This document shows, piece by piece, positions 1 through 5,877 of a DNA stretch of 58,509 nucleotides. The position numbers and the translations under genes were made by a program. Below the pieces are notes generated by a model. It did no database searches and had not been told where the DNA came from. It was given only the letters and a program-made list of their open reading frames with translations. Source of the DNA: Phycisphaerae bacterium (GTDB taxonomy: Bacteria > Planctomycetota > Phycisphaerae > Phycisphaerales > Phycisphaeraceae); contig JAUIGU010000025.1 in the NCBI GenBank assembly GCA_030432595.1, forward strand, positions 1 to 58,509. Direction: 5' to 3'. Position 1 is the stretch's first letter. Each line of letters opens with the position of its first letter.

Positions 1-179
1 TTAGCGCTCGGGCCTTCAACCCGTGCCGTGCAATATCGAATGACTTCGACATCGTTTCCATGAAGCAATTTCTCAAATAGCTTTTGTAGGTCAAGCCATT
101 TGTTGGCTCCGCCTTTGACCGATCCGTAATACAGGTTTAGGCCATCCACATAAACAATGGTTTTAGACGGTTTCGCCAT
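1..179 (-). CDS. NYN-domain ribonuclease-like protein, N-terminal part (cut by window edge)
   Basis: The frame opens with ATG at 179 and stays open for 59 codons to the window edge, so only the N-terminus is visible. It reads MAKPSKTIVYVDGLNLYYG, and the YVDGLNLYYG strand with its acidic Asp is the hallmark first strand of NYN (LabA/DUF88, PIN-like) nucleases, which are metal-dependent RNases. A G-rich stretch about 8-12 bases upstream could be the ribosome site. The gene lies directly behind a strong promoter, a short structured RNA and a Rho-independent terminator, an order like that of type III toxin-antitoxin loci. Family membership is fairly secure from the motif; a toxin role is inference. 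Confidence 0.75.
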   Translation of the reverse strand, partial: MAKPSKTIVYVDGLNLYYGSVKGGANKWLDLQKLFEKLLHGNDVEVIRYCTARVEGPSA

Positions 180-191
180 AGGGTGGCCCCC

Positions 192-219
192 AAAAAAAAT
201 GCCGACCCTATAGGTCGGC
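192..219 (-). terminator. Rho-independent terminator between a promoter and the NYN gene
   Basis: On the minus strand a 7-bp stem (GCCGACC / GGTCGGC) with a 5-base loop is followed by A and eight T. It lies about 30 bases after the predicted transcription start and only 12 bases before the NYN start codon. Most transcripts from the promoter at 253-281 should stop here, with read-through feeding the NYN gene. Confidence 0.75.
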
Positions 220-246
220 TCAAGTCCCGAAAGACTTGGAAGTCGT
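192..246 (-). ncRNA. Candidate small structured RNA (about 55 nt) upstream of the NYN gene
   Basis: Start is inferred about 7 bases after the TATAAT box at 253-258, and the end is the U-run of the terminator. The RNA has a first hairpin (221-238), CAAGUC pairing with GACUUG around a UUCG-containing loop, and then the terminator hairpin. A second copy of GACUU at 241-245 could pair with the same AAGUC, giving two mutually exclusive folds. It could be a type III-like RNA antitoxin, an attenuator leader, or simply a leader; the sequence alone does not decide. I do not recognise a known RNA family. Confidence 0.5.
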
Positions 247-252
247 AAACAG

Positions 253-281
253 ATTATACCGTCCGGCACGCGGCAATTCAA
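253..281 (-). promoter_or_regulatory. Sigma-70-type promoter for the small RNA / NYN cassette
   Basis: Minus-strand TTGAAT (281-276), a 17-base spacer and a perfect TATAAT (258-253). The -35 box overlaps the last codons of the transposase gene. Predicted start of transcription is near 246. Confidence 0.75.
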
Positions 282-1177
282 TCGTGATTTTCGGCCTTTT
301 TGTAAGGCCCCCGCTTGTTTTCCTCGGTTCCGATGACCGCCGCTTCTTCGGCCTCCAACAGCCCGACCAATTCCTCCACCGTCCAGACGTGATCCGCGAT
401 CCCGGATTCCATCGCCGGGGTGACGCGGATGCTCTGGTGGACCCGGCAGAAGTTGTAGTACATGAAGTGCAGGGCGGTCATGGCCTCGTGATTCGTGACC
501 TTCTTGCTGAACGCATTGGTGAGGCGGGTGTATCGCCGCATCCCCATCCGCATCGTGAGGTTTTGCCGCTCGACGTAGGACGTGCTGATGTGCTTGGGCT
601 CGGGGTCGCCGAACCGGACGCGCTTCTGGCAGCCGCAGATTTTCGACGGGGAATACTTGACGCTCGCGGGCTTCTTGAGCCGGGGGTCGTCGCCGAACAG
701 CTTGACCAGTTGGGCGTAATCGACGTAGGCCCCGAAGTTGTCGCGTACCGCGTCGATGTAGGCGGCGAGCCCGTCCGTGGTCAGTTGGACCCGATCCAGC
801 AGACGCCCGGCCAGGTCGTGCATGAAGTCGAACGCGGTCCCACCGTCACGCTCGCCGCACAGGTACGAGATAACGAGCTTGGAGTCGGCGTCGATCCCGA
901 CCCACGTCCACACGTCGCCGACGCCCTGCTTGCCCTTCTCGACGTTCTTCTGCTTGGCCCCGACGAACGCCCAGATTTCGTCGCACTGGACCCGCTCGGC
1001 CTTGAGGCCCCGGACGTGCTCATTGTGGTACGCCTCGCACACGTCGCCCATGTCCACCAGCAGCTTGGCCACCGTGTTCTTGCTCACGCCAGTCATGCGG
1101 ACGGTGGAGCGGATCGAGCAGCCTTCCACCAGAGCCCGGATGACGGCGGCACGCTTCTCGGTGGACAGCTTTTTCAT
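278..1177 (-). CDS. IS1-like DDE transposase
   Basis: About 299 residues from the ATG at 1177. An N-terminal helix-turn-helix (residues about 18-42, RMTGVSKNTVAKLL) is followed by the catalytic core: D66 in CDEIWAF, D135 in TTDGLAAY and E203 in YVERQNLT, the order seen in IS1-type transposases. The frame is open back to 1306, but the extra residues look non-homologous, and a consensus promoter ends only 8 bases before ATG 1177, which fixes this start. No frameshift of the classical InsA/InsB kind is present; it is a single ORF. I found no terminal inverted repeats or target duplication, so element ends are unknown and the gene may be a domesticated or solo copy. Confidence 0.88.
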   Translation of the reverse strand: MKKLSTEKRAAVIRALVEGCSIRSTVRMTGVSKNTVAKLLVDMGDVCEAYHNEHVRGLKAERVQCDEIWAFVGAKQKNVEKGKQGVGDVWTWVGIDADSKLVISYLCGERDGGTAFDFMHDLAGRLLDRVQLTTDGLAAYIDAVRDNFGAYVDYAQLVKLFGDDPRLKKPASVKYSPSKICGCQKRVRFGDPEPKHISTSYVERQNLTMRMGMRRYTRLTNAFSKKVTNHEAMTALHFMYYNFCRVHQSIRVTPAMESGIADHVWTVEELVGLLEAEEAAVIGTEENKRGPYKKAENHD

Positions 1178-1185
1178 ACTGACCG

Positions 1186-1213
1186 ATTCTAGGGGTTCGC
1201 AAGCATTTGTCAA
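1186..1213 (-). promoter_or_regulatory. Consensus promoter of the transposase, giving a near-leaderless mRNA
   Basis: Minus-strand TTGACA (1213-1208), a 16-base spacer and TAGAAT (1191-1186). Only 8 bases separate the -10 box from the ATG at 1177, so transcription should begin within about 0-3 bases of the start codon. No Shine-Dalgarno sequence is possible on such a transcript. Confidence 0.75.
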
Positions 1214-1313
1214 GCATTTTTGGTCATTCTGAATATCGAGAGGTATTTCCTTTCGTAAGTGCGCGTCAGTCCGATAGTTAAGCGCAAGCGCAATAATTCC
1301 AGACACTTAAGCG

Positions 1314-1342
1314 TTGACTCCGATTGTGAGCTTTGGTACGAT
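1314..1342 (+). promoter_or_regulatory. Sigma-70-type promoter of the DUF433/PIN-like module
   Basis: TTGACT (1314-1319), a 17-base spacer and TACGAT (1337-1342). Predicted transcription start is near 1349, 24 bases before the ATG at 1373, which has TAAGG upstream. This argues against the longer frame that opens at 1259. Confidence 0.7.
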
Positions 1343-1372
1343 CTAGCTGAACATCGGGGATTTGTAAGGTAT

Positions 1373-2098
1373 ATGGTTGCCCTAGCCAAAAAGCATCCCG
1401 CATTGGCCGGTATTTACACCGTGAAAGAGGCTTCGCGCCTTGCGATGGTGTCCTCACGGATGTTCACGCGCTGGGTGAACGGGAACGCTCAAGGTGCCGC
1501 CGCCGTCAAGCGCTACATGCCCGAGAGTCCATCAGGGGTCGTCAGCTTCGTGGACTATGTTCAGGCCCGAGCCATTCGGACGATCCGCCGAGAGCGATTT
1601 GTTGACCATCCCGACAAGCCGGGAGAGCAGATCAGGGTCGCGCCAAGCTTGCAACAAATCAGGCAGGCGGTCGAAGAAGCCGAAAAAATGGGGTTCCCTT
1701 ACCCCTTCGCTCGCCAGCATACTACATTTGTGTTTAACGATGATATCGTCGTGAAGTTAGAAGACGGCGCAGTCGTTACGTTGACTGGCAAATACAAGGC
1801 CCAACATCTGATCGAGCCGATTGTCGAGCCGTATCTTTTTGAGCTTGAGTTTGGCGAAAATGGGCTAGCTTCTCGGGACACGCCGCTGTCTCATGGCGAC
1901 CGATCAATCGTGATTGACCCCAAGGTGAAATATGGCACGCCGATAGTCATGCCCTGCGGAGTATCGGTGAGTGCTTTAGTACACGCGATCGACGAAGAGG
2001 GCGGGATTCAGGGGGCGGCGGACGCATACGGGGTTGACCCGAAAGACGTTAAAATTGCCCTCAAATATGAAGATATCCTCTCCGGGATCGCTTCCTAA
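1373..2098 (+). CDS. HTH-DUF433 antitoxin-like protein
   Basis: 241 residues from the ATG at 1373, chosen because a promoter ends at 1342 and a TAAGG ribosome site sits 5 bases upstream. The N-terminus (residues about 12-40, YTVKEASRLAMVSSRMFTRW) looks like a MerR-type winged helix. The C-terminus (from about 185: a strand starting IVIDPKVKYGTP, then a helical part with VSVSALVHAI) is a DUF433 domain, known from VapB-like antitoxins. The next gene overlaps its end and encodes a PIN-like protein, the usual partner. The likely role is toxin neutralisation plus autoregulation of the pair. The region has visibly lower GC than the flanks, consistent with transfer. Confidence 0.78.
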   Translation: MVALAKKHPALAGIYTVKEASRLAMVSSRMFTRWVNGNAQGAAAVKRYMPESPSGVVSFVDYVQARAIRTIRRERFVDHPDKPGEQIRVAPSLQQIRQAVEEAEKMGFPYPFARQHTTFVFNDDIVVKLEDGAVVTLTGKYKAQHLIEPIVEPYLFELEFGENGLASRDTPLSHGDRSIVIDPKVKYGTPIVMPCGVSVSALVHAIDEEGGIQGAADAYGVDPKDVKIALKYEDILSGIAS

Positions 2099-2609
2099 AG
2101 TCATGCTCGACGAGTGCATGGGTTGCCAAGGTTCACGCCTAGCAGCCAGCCTTTTTGAGTTGCACAAGCCCCCGGTTCATGCCGAATGGCTGAATGATTT
2201 TTTGGGTCGCCAAGGCTCGCTAGATGTCGATTGGACCCAAATCATCCAGTCTCAAGGCGGATGGATCGTCGTCAGTTGTGACAAAGGAAAACAGCGGGGG
2301 GAGAAGGCTCGATTGAAAGGCCCGCCGCTGCACCTGATCTGCCCGGCCCGCAAAATCACAGCGTTCTTTTTGGGAGGGAAAGCATCGAATCGGTCTGGAT
2401 TTCACAAAGCCACGGAAGGAATCTCGCTCTGGCCCGCAATGGTTGAACGCTACAACACGGCAGAGCCCGGAACTCGATTTCGGATCAGGCGAACAACCAA
2501 CGGGCTGACACTGGCCCAATGGCCGCTCGCCGCTAACGAGGTTCTTCCCGATCTTTCCAACGAGCCGCCGCCGCCTTCTTCGCTATTTCCCGACGCTCCT
2601 CAAGAGTGA
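2067..2609 (+). CDS. PIN-like domain protein, probable toxin of the pair
   Basis: About 180 residues if ATG 2067 is used; this overlaps the antitoxin by 32 bases and suggests translational coupling. ATG 2103 (MLDECMG) is an alternative. The first strand KVMLDE and the later WIVVSCDKG resemble the acidic strands of PIN-like (DUF5615-type) nucleases, and the position behind a DUF433 gene fits the pairing. An extension after residue about 105 (rich in K, R and W, ending in a Pro-rich tail) has no family that I recognise. No enzymatic function is proven by sequence; RNase activity is inferred from the family. Confidence 0.65.
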   Translation: MKISSPGSLPKVMLDECMGCQGSRLAASLFELHKPPVHAEWLNDFLGRQGSLDVDWTQIIQSQGGWIVVSCDKGKQRGEKARLKGPPLHLICPARKITAFFLGGKASNRSGFHKATEGISLWPAMVERYNTAEPGTRFRIRRTTNGLTLAQWPLAANEVLPDLSNEPPPPSSLFPDAPQE

Positions 2610-2790
2610 GCTTCTCAGCCCTCGCCTTGCCTCCTGCAACACCACCGGCATGGCCGCGTTTTTCGGTGTTTGCCTCGCCTTCTTCCGCCTGCCCCGTCGC
2701 CAGGTCCACGATCCGCTTGGCGAGCTGGTTCGCGTCCCGCGGGCGCTTGGGCTTTTTCTCGGGGTCCGGCTTCACGGGTTCGTCTGACAT
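2533..2790 (-). CDS. Small charged protein with GGKARAEKLT / AKKAAAARW motif
   Basis: 85 residues, rich in K, R, E and A. After a disordered PDPEKKPKRP stretch it carries RGHAGGVAGGKARAEKL followed by EERREIAKKAAAARW, a motif often found alone or as a tail in bacterial proteins and loosely similar to stress-type KGG repeats or histone H1-like tails. It is convergent with the PIN-like gene, and the 3' ends overlap by 77 bases. The motif suggests nucleic-acid binding, but the function is not established. Confidence 0.65.
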   Translation of the reverse strand: MSDEPVKPDPEKKPKRPRDANQLAKRIVDLATGQAEEGEANTEKRGHAGGVAGGKARAEKLTLEERREIAKKAAAARWKDREEPR

Positions 2791-2889
2791 GCCCCCATTG
2801 TACGGGGCGAATCTCGCGGGCTAGATTTCAGACTGACCCACTACCCAAACTCCGCACAACTCGACCTTGGCTTCCCGCCGGCGTGGGGT

Positions 2890-3537
2890 ATGATTGCGTG
2901 GCGAATTATTCAAGCTCTGCCCGGCATTGTGCTGATGAGAACAGGTTCCCCCGATAACCCCGGCACCGCATCCCCTCAGGCCGTTGCCGCCGCCATGGCC
3001 GCCCGCGCCCGCGCGGTCAGCCGGCTCGGGTCGCTCACCGCCGGCCGCGTCGAACCCCAAGCCGACCCCACCCCCAGCCGCGCGTCGTCCCTGCCGGTCG
3101 ACCGCCGCCGCAAACACCCCAAGCTCCGGCTCGTCGGCGTCGAGACCGGGTCAGTCGTCAAGCCCGCGATCACCCCCCAGCAGCACGACCCCATCACCGA
3201 CACCGCCGACCCCCGCTGGGTCCTGGCGGTCCGCACCGCCGAGCAGCTCGAAGGCACCATCCTCCGCCCCGAGAAACGCGAACACCTCCTCAAACTCGGC
3301 AAGGTCTTCGGCCTCACCCCCTTCGACGCCAACCTGGTCATCGCCATCGTCCAAGACCAGGCCCGCCGCGGCCACGCCCCGGCCTACTGCCCCACCGCCG
3401 GCGAGCCGCAGCTGCGCATGGTCCCGCCGCCGCGCCGCCGGCCGTGGTCTCTGCGCCGTTGGCTCACCCTGGGCGCCTGCATCGCCACGTTCACCGCCGC
3501 CGAACTCGCGGTGCTGGCCTGGTACTTCGGGGGGTGA
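2890..3537 (+). CDS. Hypothetical protein with C-terminal membrane anchor
   Basis: 215 residues from ATG 2890, or 200 from ATG 2935. The first 90 residues are Ala/Pro/Arg-rich and probably disordered. The middle (about 105-160) is a compact helical region with LEGTILRPEKREHLLKL and FGLTPFDANLVIAIV. A basic patch PPPRRRPWSLRRW precedes a single transmembrane helix near the end (LGACIATFTAAELAVLAWYF), so the bulk should be cytoplasmic and tail-anchored. I do not recognise the family. GC content and codon use match the chromosome, unlike the preceding island. Confidence 0.65.
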   Translation: MIAWRIIQALPGIVLMRTGSPDNPGTASPQAVAAAMAARARAVSRLGSLTAGRVEPQADPTPSRASSLPVDRRRKHPKLRLVGVETGSVVKPAITPQQHDPITDTADPRWVLAVRTAEQLEGTILRPEKREHLLKLGKVFGLTPFDANLVIAIVQDQARRGHAPAYCPTAGEPQLRMVPPPRRRPWSLRRWLTLGACIATFTAAELAVLAWYFGG

Positions 3538-3591
3538 CGCACAGCTCCGACGCTCGGTCTTCCAACTTCTCTCGCCAGGACATAACGAAGA

Positions 3592-4461
3592 TCACCGCAC
3601 CGGCGGCGCAAAGTGGTGCAGAACGATGCCTGCGGCCACGGCAACGTTCAGTGAATCAACGCCCGCATGCATCGGGATCGTGACCACGCGCGAGCACAAA
3701 CCCAGGTGTTCTTCGCTCAGGCCGTAGCCCTCGGACCCGAGCACGACGGCGAGGCGGTCCGCGCGATCGGCGAGTTTGAGGTCCAGGGCGTCGTCGCGCA
3801 GCGCGGTGCCGACCACATCGAACGTGAACGCGTCGCGCAGGCGTCGGAGGTCGCGGGCGATGTTGTCGCTGCGCACGATCGGCAGTTTGAAGATCGTGCC
3901 CATCGACAGACGCACCGACCGCCGGTACCACGGGTCGTTGCACCGCTCACCCAGCACCATGGCGTCCACCCCCAGGGCCGCGGCGATGCGGATCAGCAGC
4001 CCGAGGTTGTCGACGTTGGTGATCTCCGGGCAAACTACGAGCGTGCGTGCGCTTGAATCCCCCTCCACCCGGGAGGGGCCGGGTGAGGGTGCCTCGGGAT
4101 CCCTCCCGTGTCCTCGCGTGCATCCCTGAATCGGCGGTGCCGAAACATCCTCCAGCGTTCGGTCCGCCGGCACATACCCCGCCGCGATCACCCCCTGATG
4201 CAGCCTGAACCCGACCGTGTCGCGGAGCACGTCTTCTGGGCAGACGAACATCGGCACGTCCTCCGGCCAACGCGAACGCCACGCCCCGGCTTTCCGGTCA
4301 CTGCACAGAAGGGAGTGGAGTCGCAGTCCGCTCTCGAGCAGGCGTTCGACGACCAACGCCCCCTCGGCGAGGAACAGCGCGGTGTCCCGACGGACCTGCT
4401 TGTCGGGCAGCCCGACATAGAGCTCGAGCCGGGGGTCGTCGGCATGGGTGATGGTGGGCAC
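3592..4461 (-). CDS. TrmH/SpoU-family RNA 2'-O-methyltransferase with in-frame repeat insertion
   Basis: 289 residues from GTG 4461, which has GGGCGAGA upstream; ATG 4509 is in frame but adds 16 residues that do not look homologous. A substrate-binding N-domain (1-100) is followed by the SPOUT domain with its three motifs: NVDNLGLLIRIAAALG (from about 149), VVLGSEGYGLS and IPMHAGVDSLNVAVAAGI near the C-terminus, which form the knotted SAM site. Residues about 110-139 (with EAPSPGPSRVEG) are encoded by a GC-rich palindromic repeat found elsewhere in the window, inserted in the interdomain linker without breaking the frame. It probably methylates a ribose in rRNA or tRNA; the exact target cannot be read. 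Confidence 0.85.
   Translation of the reverse strand: MPTITHADDPRLELYVGLPDKQVRRDTALFLAEGALVVERLLESGLRLHSLLCSDRKAGAWRSRWPEDVPMFVCPEDVLRDTVGFRLHQGVIAAGYVPADRTLEDVSAPPIQGCTRGHGRDPEAPSPGPSRVEGDSSARTLVVCPEITNVDNLGLLIRIAAALGVDAMVLGERCNDPWYRRSVRLSMGTIFKLPIVRSDNIARDLRRLRDAFTFDVVGTALRDDALDLKLADRADRLAVVLGSEGYGLSEEHLGLCSRVVTIPMHAGVDSLNVAVAAGIVLHHFAPPVR
4040..4142. repeat. GC-rich palindromic repeat inside trmH-like gene (copy 1)
   Basis: Contains a 22-base core at 4071-4092 (GGGAGGGGCCGGG, then TGAGGGTGC) that recurs at 26036-26057 and, in the opposite orientation, at 26595-26616; this copy differs from them at one base. CTCCACCCGGGAGG at the left is palindromic. The length keeps the reading frame. Confidence 0.75.
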
Positions 4462-4554
4462 GATCTCGCCCAAGTTAAAGCAACGAGGTCCACAAAAACG
4501 TAGGACCATCTCTCGACCGGCTGTATGCTGTGCGGTTCGTTTTGGGGAGTTTCA

Positions 4555-5877
4555 ATGAGCGAGTCAAGACGGGATTTACCCCGTCGAATCATCCTCGACG
4601 TGACACGGACGGCGCTGCACGGCGGGTCCGGCGGCGCACACCGCGTGGTGCGCCAGTTGTCCAGACACGCGGAGCGAGCCGCAACCGAACGCGGGGTGGC
4701 GTTGGAAGTCGTCGCGTGGACGGGCCGGCGGTATGCACGGGTAGCGCGGCGTCTGCCACGCAGTCCCCGACGCTGGGTGGCGTTCCTGCACACCATCCAC
4801 AACCGGCGGCGTTTGCGCCGGCAGCACGGCGATGTCCACGCGGCCACCGAGCCGATCGCCGCCGAGTCTGCGGAGTGGATGCCCGCCTGGATGGAGCAAA
4901 CGGTCGGGCTGGCCGCGGCGCGCGGCGCGACGGTGCGACCGCGTGCCGGCGATGTCCTCGTGTTGCTGGACGCCCCATGGAATTCGGCCAGCCTGCTCGA
5001 TCACGCGGAAGGCTGCCCGGCGACGGTCGGCGTGTTCGTACACGACCTGATGCCGTTGGACGCGCCGGAGACGTTTGCCGCGGGGGTGCCGGGCCGGTTC
5101 CGTCGGTGGGTCGACCGGGCGTTGTCGGTGTCCGACTTCGTCGTGACGGTGTCGGAGACGACGCGAGCCGCCGTCGAAACGCACCGGTCATCACTCGAGT
5201 TGCCGCCCATCCCCAGCGCAAGCTTCCGACCCGGAGCGCTCACCGATGAAGAACGCCTGCGGCGTGACAAGGCGGTGGACGTGGCGCTGCTGCGCCAGAC
5301 CCTGCCCGCGTGCTTTGTCGGCGAGCCGACCGTGCTTTGCTCGGCCATGTTCGACCCGCGGATGAACCACGCCCAACTGCTCGACGGGTTCGAGGCGTAC
5401 TGGGCGCGCGGCGGGACGACGCGGCTGCTCTTGGCGGGCGTGGTCGGATGGGGTGCCGGCGAGTTGCTTCAGCGGCTGGACCGCCACCCGCAGCGCGGCC
5501 GTCGGCTGCTGGTCATGCACGACCTGAACGACCACGAACTGACCTATGCGCTTCGGCTGGCGGCGGCGGTGGTCTACCCTTCCCTCGCCGAAGGGCACGG
5601 CGCCGGCATCATCGAAGGCCTGGCGCACGGCTGCCGGGTACTGGCCAGCGATATCCCGGCCCACCGCGAGGCCGGTGGCGACGCGGCGTGGTACTTCCCG
5701 CTTGGCGCGCCCGAAGCGCTGGCCGACCTGATCCAGCGGCTGGACACGACCGGGCACAATGAAAAGCCGACGCCGCCGCGCCTCCCGACGTGGTCTGAAA
5801 GCACCGTCCGGTTCTTCGACACGCTCGAAACGCTGGTGGCGAAATCGAAGCAACCCGAGAACGAAACGGGCCCCTGA
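4555..5877 (+). CDS. Glycosyltransferase, GT4-like
   Basis: 440 residues from ATG 4555, which has GGGGAG 8 bases upstream; an upstream in-frame ATG at 4525 lacks one. The C-terminal half carries the GT-B donor-site pattern: GHGAGIIEGLAHGCRVLASD with two Glu spaced as in the EX7E motif, then IPAHREAGGDAAWYF. The N-terminal half has an acceptor-binding Rossmann-like region with VFVHDLMPLDAPE. Retaining transfer of a sugar from a nucleotide donor to a surface glycan is expected. The stop overlaps the start of the next glycosyltransferase (TGATG), so the two are translationally coupled and probably build the same polysaccharide. Confidence 0.85.
   Translation: MSESRRDLPRRIILDVTRTALHGGSGGAHRVVRQLSRHAERAATERGVALEVVAWTGRRYARVARRLPRSPRRWVAFLHTIHNRRRLRRQHGDVHAATEPIAAESAEWMPAWMEQTVGLAAARGATVRPRAGDVLVLLDAPWNSASLLDHAEGCPATVGVFVHDLMPLDAPETFAAGVPGRFRRWVDRALSVSDFVVTVSETTRAAVETHRSSLELPPIPSASFRPGALTDEERLRRDKAVDVALLRQTLPACFVGEPTVLCSAMFDPRMNHAQLLDGFEAYWARGGTTRLLLAGVVGWGAGELLQRLDRHPQRGRRLLVMHDLNDHELTYALRLAAAVVYPSLAEGHGAGIIEGLAHGCRVLASDIPAHREAGGDAAWYFPLGAPEALADLIQRLDTTGHNEKPTPPRLPTWSESTVRFFDTLETLVAKSKQPENETGP

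Follow-up and report, generated by a model that had tools for sequence, protein, structure and literature searches.

A two-hairpin RNA in front of a NYN nuclease gene

The window, i.e., the whole 58,509-nt stretch of a Phycisphaerae contig that was analysed, carries at its left end the 5' part (59 codons) of a gene for a NYN-domain protein on the minus strand (1–179), with the ATG at 179–177. Ahead of it, the preliminary description of this DNA had reported a TTGAAT-N17-TATAAT promoter, a two-hairpin RNA of about 55 nt and a U8 terminator ending 12 nt before the NYN start. These parts were all found on the minus strand, and the order promoter, RNA, terminator, RNase gene was borne out by the sequence and the fold. 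The sigma-70-type promoter lies at 253–281 (TTGAAT at 281–276, a 17-nt spacer and TATAAT at 258–253) and agrees with the consensus at 10 of 12 positions. The small RNA of about 55 nt occupies 192–248 and was assigned by the covariance model R3 to class A of the NYN-associated RNA family described below. It comprises a 5' single-stranded box, ACGACUUC, at 239–246, which was defined by the alignments A2 and A6, a first hairpin at 221–238 obtained by folding (CAAGUCU-UUCG-GGACUUG), and a second hairpin, GCCGACCU-AUA-GGGUCGGC, at 219–201. The second hairpin is followed by an A and eight U residues (199–192), the whole of 192–219 forming an intrinsic terminator. Immediately 3' of the U tract, GGGGG at 187–191 is a candidate ribosome-binding site of the NYN gene, and 12 nt separate the last U from the start codon.

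The predicted folding energy of the 57-nt stretch 190–246 is -22.6 kcal/mol (z = -4.1; none of 200 shuffles folded as well), and the z score weakened to -2.1 and -1.75 when longer flanks extended the stretch to 69 and 81 nt. No tandem repeats were found in the window RNA. Positions 1–5000 of the window hold four promoter-like sites, with 1.2 expected, and five terminator-like sites, with 5.0 expected from shuffles; the motifs by themselves are therefore unconvincing, and the comparative evidence decides. An IS1-like transposase gene lies directly upstream (281–1180, minus strand, scanned; NF033558, 63 bits, under its cut-off of 100), and the -35 box of the RNA promoter shares bases with its stop codon. 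Inverted repeats bounding the transposase were looked for, but nothing convincing was seen and the element ends were not found.

The contig breaks off inside the NYN gene. Another of the 73 contigs of the same genome (G000:C50) overlaps the window by 25 bases at its end and carries the reading frame on from 48151 down to about 47649, where it reaches a stop; the outermost 10 bases of that contig differ from the window. The join was accepted because of this overlap and because the joined protein aligned with its homologues over the full length, and the gene, previously described only as far as the left edge, was thereby completed. The joined protein has 218 amino acids, and NYN (PF01936, E = 2.3e-12) is its sole Pfam family at E ≤ 0.001. 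It matched the PADLOC model HEC-09, which represents a candidate defence family (PDLC04163; HEC presumably stands for "Hma-embedded candidate") with an E-value of 1.3e-40, and all 13 family proteins scanned matched this model at 5.4e-25 or better.

Among 73 sequences, D8, N11, E103 and D132 (numbering of the homologue L035) were invariant and D107 and D134 nearly so, the acids among them being candidate catalytic residues. The structure predicted for L035 from 73 sequences (pLDDT 95.1, pTM 0.90) had its best structural matches in 2qip (Z = 17.3) and in MARF1 NYN domains (Z = 16.5 and 16.2), and no ToxN or AbiF chain was seen among the best 50 rows each of the Foldseek and VIA lists. The predicted fold and the conserved acidic residues identify the protein as a member of the NYN nucleases. 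A second NYN-domain gene with PF01936 is present in the same genome (G000:C64:7039-7401) and was missed by the HEC-09-like query. On the plasmids OW967852.1, OW970225.1 and OW969917.1, family members are annotated as 6-hydroxy-3-succinoylpyridine 3-monooxygenase HspA, a label that is at odds with a nuclease and may have been given in error.

Conservation, classes and placement of the RNA

A first genome scan with a single protein query gave no relative, and an alignment query then found relatives. In the phylum sample, 19 of 392 genomes, the window's own counted, had a protein match. Genome contigs yielded at least 543 relatives among the stretches examined and viral contigs 117, of which 80 were kept in each case, and matches were obtained in 446 of 72,556 plasmid records and in 3 phage records. 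Since the homologue set contains near-copies, above all among the viral contigs, the following counts are not independent: of 160 loci, 13 were unusable, and among the remaining 147 a strict terminator lay in the 100 nt ahead of the NYN start in 87, compared with 15 of 564 for the other ORFs there, 18 of 735 for shuffled sequences and 8 of 147 on the antisense strand; and a structure of two hairpins plus U tract adjoined the NYN gene in 139 of 172 loci, compared with 9 of 600 random one-strand windows, which with four windows scanned per locus corresponds to about 6% of loci expected by chance. The 33 loci without such a structure over the threshold are an overcount, since the model R1 recovers the RNA in L016, L105 and L109.

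The preliminary description had let its case depend on the same RNA preceding related NYN genes in other planctomycetes; the RNA is conserved there and far beyond the phylum. It adjoins HEC-09-like NYN genes in at least 12 phyla, counted over records that name one (Pseudomonadota, Actinomycetota, Chloroflexota, Bacteroidota, Planctomycetota, Acidobacteriota, Ignavibacteriota, Nitrospinota, Spirochaetota, Kiritimatiellota, Deinococcota, Latescibacterota, Nitrospirota and Verrucomicrobiota, the last with a sole and doubtful locus, L047), and single assignments may err because most records are metagenome bins.

The leaders of the relatives follow a common plan, in which the single-stranded 5' box (ACNACUCCCC or a similar sequence) is followed by hairpin 1, by a short linker and hairpin 2, and then by a U tract and the start codon. 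Class A, that of the window, reads ACGACUYCC, a hairpin, UUGGGC and a hairpin with a CUAUAU/G loop. Class B consists of CCCC, a hairpin with a UUCG-type loop, GGGYGCG, a second hairpin and UGCUUUUU, and class C, on the opposite strand, of ACCCC, a hairpin with a GCAUC loop, CCCGACGCC, a second hairpin and GGCGUUU. The class A box, AC-R-ACU-YCC, is almost invariant in the alignments A2 and A6, and ACG, which was outside the search pattern, precedes eight of eight viral class A matches. The switch that had been suggested from a three-way choice of GACUU, AAGUC and GACUU is not conserved, as ACGACU or ACAACU is kept in relatives in which the arms of hairpin 1 differ in sequence and cannot pair with it.

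In the 33 sequences of class B, 92.1% of the cells were paired compared with 72.3% in shuffled alignments, 13 of 15 pairs had changed on both sides, and the covariation score was 0.634 compared with 0.246 (0 of 500 shuffles); the corresponding values for the 21 sequences of class C were 96.8% and 78.8%, 10 of 15 pairs, and 0.541 and 0.207 (0 of 500), the structures of both classes having been derived by RNAalifold from the same alignments as tested, which favours them. Covariation was seen in the helix of hairpin 2 in classes A, B and C and in that of hairpin 1 in classes B and C; of hairpin 1, the RNAalifold consensus of class A keeps just 3 pairs. The joint alignment of classes A and B (A5), in which the second helix of class A lies two columns off, was excluded from the counts. 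A proteobacterial plasmid variant of the leader (L246, L247, L250, L251, L030 and L031) has a GAUUAAGUU-like stretch, as described by eye, and several proteobacterial plasmid leaders carry an A-rich/U-rich symmetric terminator hairpin.

No Rfam family reached its gathering score on the RNA of 20 and 17 loci. Four matches at E ≤ 10 were obtained in positions 1–3000 of the window, and those on the RNA itself were SorY (19.3 bits, E = 0.89) and suhB (19.1 bits, E = 0.94). Both identities were rejected as resemblance only, the gathering scores of 111 and 41 being far above. A search for literature on an RNA adjoining NYN genes found none, preprints and most subscription papers lying outside its range. 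The two-hairpin RNA family is apparently unreported, and its pairing with a NYN gene, put forward earlier as new, had no precedent in either source.

Covariance models were built from ten class A members with the window left out (R3), from class C (R2) and from class B (R1). R3 detected the window RNA with 37.6 bits (E = 6.9e-7 in the window), and across the whole 4.4-Mb genome this RNA was the sole strong hit (E = 5.2e-5; next E = 0.57). Given 11 loci, the same model found L038, L260 and L088, none of them in training, at 67–70 bits in the leader; the genome of L260 (G022) belongs to the same family as that of the window. Over 92 loci, R3 gave eight matches at E ≤ 1, namely L088, the weak class B leaders L077, L064, L017 and L011 (E = 0.05–0.13), L069 and L066 off the leader, and L047. 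R2 found the class B leaders L069, L087, L077 and L103 (E = 2e-4 to 0.06) together with some weak matches elsewhere, and since a class C model matches class B leaders, the classes look related. The second helix of R1 was entered two columns off, which probably underrates its matches, and its hits were used where other evidence agrees. By R1, the RNA adjoins NYN in 28 of 38 hand-picked loci outside training, some of which closely duplicate one another or training members; R1 does not find the window RNA.

Elsewhere in the window's genome, R2 gave one match of 24.7 bits (G000:C64:195768-195830). Second RNA copies were observed at L105:659-724 and L084:3261-3337, some 0.6–3 kb from the NYN-adjacent copy, and two neighbouring copies in G327, the genome of L010.

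Placement was classified at a structure score of at least 44 in 172 loci, the window included. The RNA was upstream on the same strand in 97, upstream on the opposite strand in 28, downstream and convergent in 10, downstream on the same strand in 4 and not detected in 33, with the reading that the script mislabels the strand of near-symmetric hairpins (e.g., L024, L046, L093 and L183) and that the downstream labels are doubtful for L028, L099, L163, L165, L166 and L185. The convergent class rests on L034/L121-L123, L058/L063, L068, L091 and L252, all of which were also found by R1, and L058/L063 by R2 as well. In the upstream same-strand class, the median distance from the end of hairpin 2 to the start codon is 20 nt, and 71 of 97 loci fall within 5–35 nt. 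Promoters that match the consensus at 9 or more of 12 positions stand before the RNA in 39 of the 96 upstream same-strand loci, in 16 of the 28 opposite-strand loci, in 4 of the 10 convergent ones and in none of the 4 that are downstream on the same strand, compared with 2, 0, 0 and 1 in the reverse-strand control; the four convergent cases are near-identical prophage copies, and the other six reach 6–8 positions. The -10 box is mostly 11–18 nt ahead of hairpin 1.

In a FastTree tree of the proteins, opposite-strand RNA marks one clade in 22 of 23 rows, and the 23rd, L093, is opposite-strand by R2. The convergent form occurs in two separate clades (actinobacterial prophages and the L058/L063/L068/L091 group) and also on a plasmid of Paenarthrobacter. 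In the tree, loci with the same placement cluster together, and placement changes between clades, more than once.

RNA copies and NYN genes apart from each other

A further 33 PF01936 genes from related genomes were taken from among the matches listed. Two of them are family members (177 and 258 bits to the family), and both carry the RNA (L260 and L261). The other 31 are remote NYN genes with at most 44.7 bits to the family; none of the 31 has the terminator, and the two-hairpin threshold was barely reached in two of them (45.0 and 44.0).

Conversely, the RNA models gave 14 hits above 40 bits in the phylum genomes, 12 of which lie beside NYN genes or remnants of them. The training set accounts for eight of the 14, and four of the other six are at NYN. 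The two hits without NYN nearby are in G052 and G058, the latter an orphan class B RNA (L238, on G058:C20) between an apparent transposase end and a small HigB/Xre-like gene pair, named by eye. Weaker matches (E ≤ 0.01) occur in 58 of 392 genomes with R2 and in 14 of 392 with R1, neighbour genes being outside these counts. A candidate orphan on G317:C4 was rejected and is counted among the 12, as the RNA precedes the 5' end of a broken NYN gene. There (L255, 7500–7719) and in L025, the NYN frame stops after about 18 codons near the contig end and the RNA before it looks intact; another contig end in the same genome holds part of a NYN gene. In G061, also among the 12, a truncated NYN remnant (L257, 4190–4423) still has a class C RNA adjoining it.

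Viral contigs were searched by RNA sequence patterns alone, which gave 21 stretches (1, 7, 8 and 5); the exact 32-nt pattern of the window RNA was found in none. A profile search of the full records detected NYN in 3 of the 21 and none in the other 18; since records may be fragments, absence from the virus itself does not follow. Kinship exists among the 18, within L300-L303 plus L305-L307 and between L310 and L312. The model scores of the viral RNAs were 28–64 bits for class A, 44–68 for class B and 58–72 for class C. A head-tail connector gene is near the RNA in L304, a baseplate wedge gene directly ahead of it in L311 and a phage gene of nucleotide-kinase families beside it in L309. In L302 and L306, the RNA stands between the stop of one gene and the next gene, and three of these genes were scanned and gave no PHROG. 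The RNAs of L300-L303 and L305-L307 are without a U tract directly after hairpin 2. These viral copies may be remnants of a former module or may be in use as terminators. By analogy, they recall the phage "pseudo-ToxI" mimics, the pseudo-ToxI RNA of phage PhiTE being able to disarm ToxIN (PMC3475682).

Interpretation and comparison with known systems

As judged from sequence comparison, the RNA is a conserved, covarying family, mostly terminator-ended and often with its own promoter, that stays beside the nuclease gene, and it probably serves as the antidote in a toxin or defence module under RNA control. Since it is linked to the RNase in every placement, shows no antisense pairing in the main class and occurs alone in viral contigs, a protein-binding inhibitor is the best explanation; from these genomic patterns, we infer RNA-NYN binding, toxicity and a role in defence. 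The reading that we favour, with somewhat better than even confidence, is a NYN (HEC-09) ribonuclease neutralised by its RNA, similar in action to type III toxin-antitoxin (TA) systems or AbiF-RCd22 and outside the ToxN-type families. The RNA would bind the NYN protein and hold the nuclease inactive, as in type III neutralisation. In the arrangement of the window, the terminator would restrict the nuclease mRNA to read-through, and the RNA would thereby exceed the protein. Loss of the RNA, or its being outcompeted, as in plasmid loss or phage takeover, would free the nuclease to cut RNA, and phages would carry copies of the RNA as decoy antidotes. More tentatively, and at a little less than an even chance, we suggest a domain-wide, undescribed ribonucleoprotein conflict module, in which a two-hairpin RNA, its gene shifting in position around the nuclease gene, restrains the NYN ribonuclease and the NYN-less phage copies, some of them beside structural genes, are disarming mimics.

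The strong conservation of the 5' box and of the class-specific loops would also suit a guide or essential cofactor, i.e., an active NYN-RNA complex that recognises target RNA via the 5' ACNACUCCCC box or the loops, and the RNA-protein linkage, stable across placements, would leave the same genomic traces in this case as for an antidote. However, no obviously variable guide segment was seen by eye in the alignments, and the orphan RNAs of phages make more sense as inhibitors. Neither point is decisive, and we regard a guide or cofactor as unlikely.

A still smaller probability is given to the RNA being merely a 5' leader, a transcription attenuator by which the NYN protein, or a signal, controls the protein's own mRNA in cis. 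The 97 of 172 loci with the RNA upstream on the same strand, the window included, agree with this, and the close spacing there leaves little room for another promoter. Yet in an entire NYN clade the RNA is encoded on the opposite strand, usually behind a promoter of its own, in others it is downstream and convergent, and viral contigs carry it without the gene. Since the pairing is kept while placement changes, a leader or attenuator is not the general function. The attenuator leader, which the preliminary description had offered as an alternative, is thus refuted by the placements as a general explanation, whereas added control in the same-strand arrangement may exist.

Antisense regulation of the NYN mRNA in the manner of type I systems, as the opposite-strand placement of one clade might suggest, is highly improbable. 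Computed duplexes with the nuclease start region were stronger for own than for swapped pairs over the whole RNA in the opposite-strand (-32.60 compared with -30.64 kcal/mol) and convergent (-35.83 compared with -32.79 kcal/mol) classes, and at the 5' end in the opposite-strand class (-11.45 compared with -8.07 kcal/mol), but opposite-strand stretches can overlap in DNA, and of the 10 convergent rows four are near-identical. The same-strand class, which far exceeds the others in size, showed no difference over the whole RNA (-23.65 compared with -23.70) or at the 5' end (-6.40 compared with -6.64), nor did the convergent class at the 5' end (-5.83 compared with -6.10). A spurious arrangement, i.e., chance terminators and coincidence in the window, would agree with terminator-like sites being no commoner in the first 5 kb than in shuffles, but it is refuted by the conservation, the covariation, the blind model hits and the controls, and its probability is negligible.

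If the neutralisation of the NYN ribonuclease by its RNA is correct, it would provide a partner and a mechanism for the common, unexplained "NYN domain-containing protein" of plasmids and for the HEC-09 candidate, give Rfam a further family of wide distribution and bring another nuclease fold into the group of RNA-neutralised toxins. The orphan RNAs borne by phages would represent an arms race open to direct test with a 60-nt transcript.

Several known systems share parts of this arrangement. The CRISPR-associated NYN of Bacteroides, located within a type III CRISPR locus, cleaves ssRNA in a Mn-dependent and sequence-nonspecific manner and has a proposed role in crRNA trimming (PMC11346440). 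It is likewise a NYN ribonuclease, but the accessible text of that report describes no small RNA partner of this kind. HEC-09 of PADLOC is the same NYN protein, but its entry is a protein model only, without an RNA partner. HEC-05/06 appear in PMC11411939. Our literature search on HEC-09 found no functional test and one correlation paper, in which HEC-09 correlates with phage susceptibility, not resistance, in Pseudomonas (PMC12447246).

Type III TA loci consist of a promoter, a small RNA, a Rho-independent terminator and an RNase gene in one operon (PMC5086642), and ToxIN, CptIN and TenpIN share this order of parts with the window and its same-strand relatives. Both kinds of system are found on plasmids, phages and chromosomes, and a phage carries ToxI copies (PMC3475682). 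In contrast to type III, the protein here is NYN/PIN-like and not ToxN-like, and the RNA sometimes lies on the opposite strand or downstream of the gene; loci of these two kinds lack the terminator between RNA and gene and the single promoter that define type III. The RNA has two plain hairpins, usually in one copy and without the tandem repeats of ToxI, and no pseudoknot like that of the type III RNAs was noticed among the nested folds that were computed. Hence, the type III-like TA system suggested in the preliminary description stands as to the order of parts and the conservation of the RNA, whereas formal membership in ToxIN, CptIN or TenpIN fails because tandem repeats are lacking and the protein belongs to another family.

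AbiF has a HEPN fold. It is an Abi_2 protein with its own RNA motif (RF03085), whereas the partner here is NYN, and RF03085 scored below its gathering score on the RNAs of the loci scanned and was absent at E ≤ 10 from positions 1–3000 of the window. AbiF-RCd22 comprises a promoter, a short structured RNA, a terminator and a toxin gene, and neutralisation of the protein by direct contact with the RNA, in cis and in trans, has been shown experimentally (PMC12373285); the locus in the window has the same order of parts.
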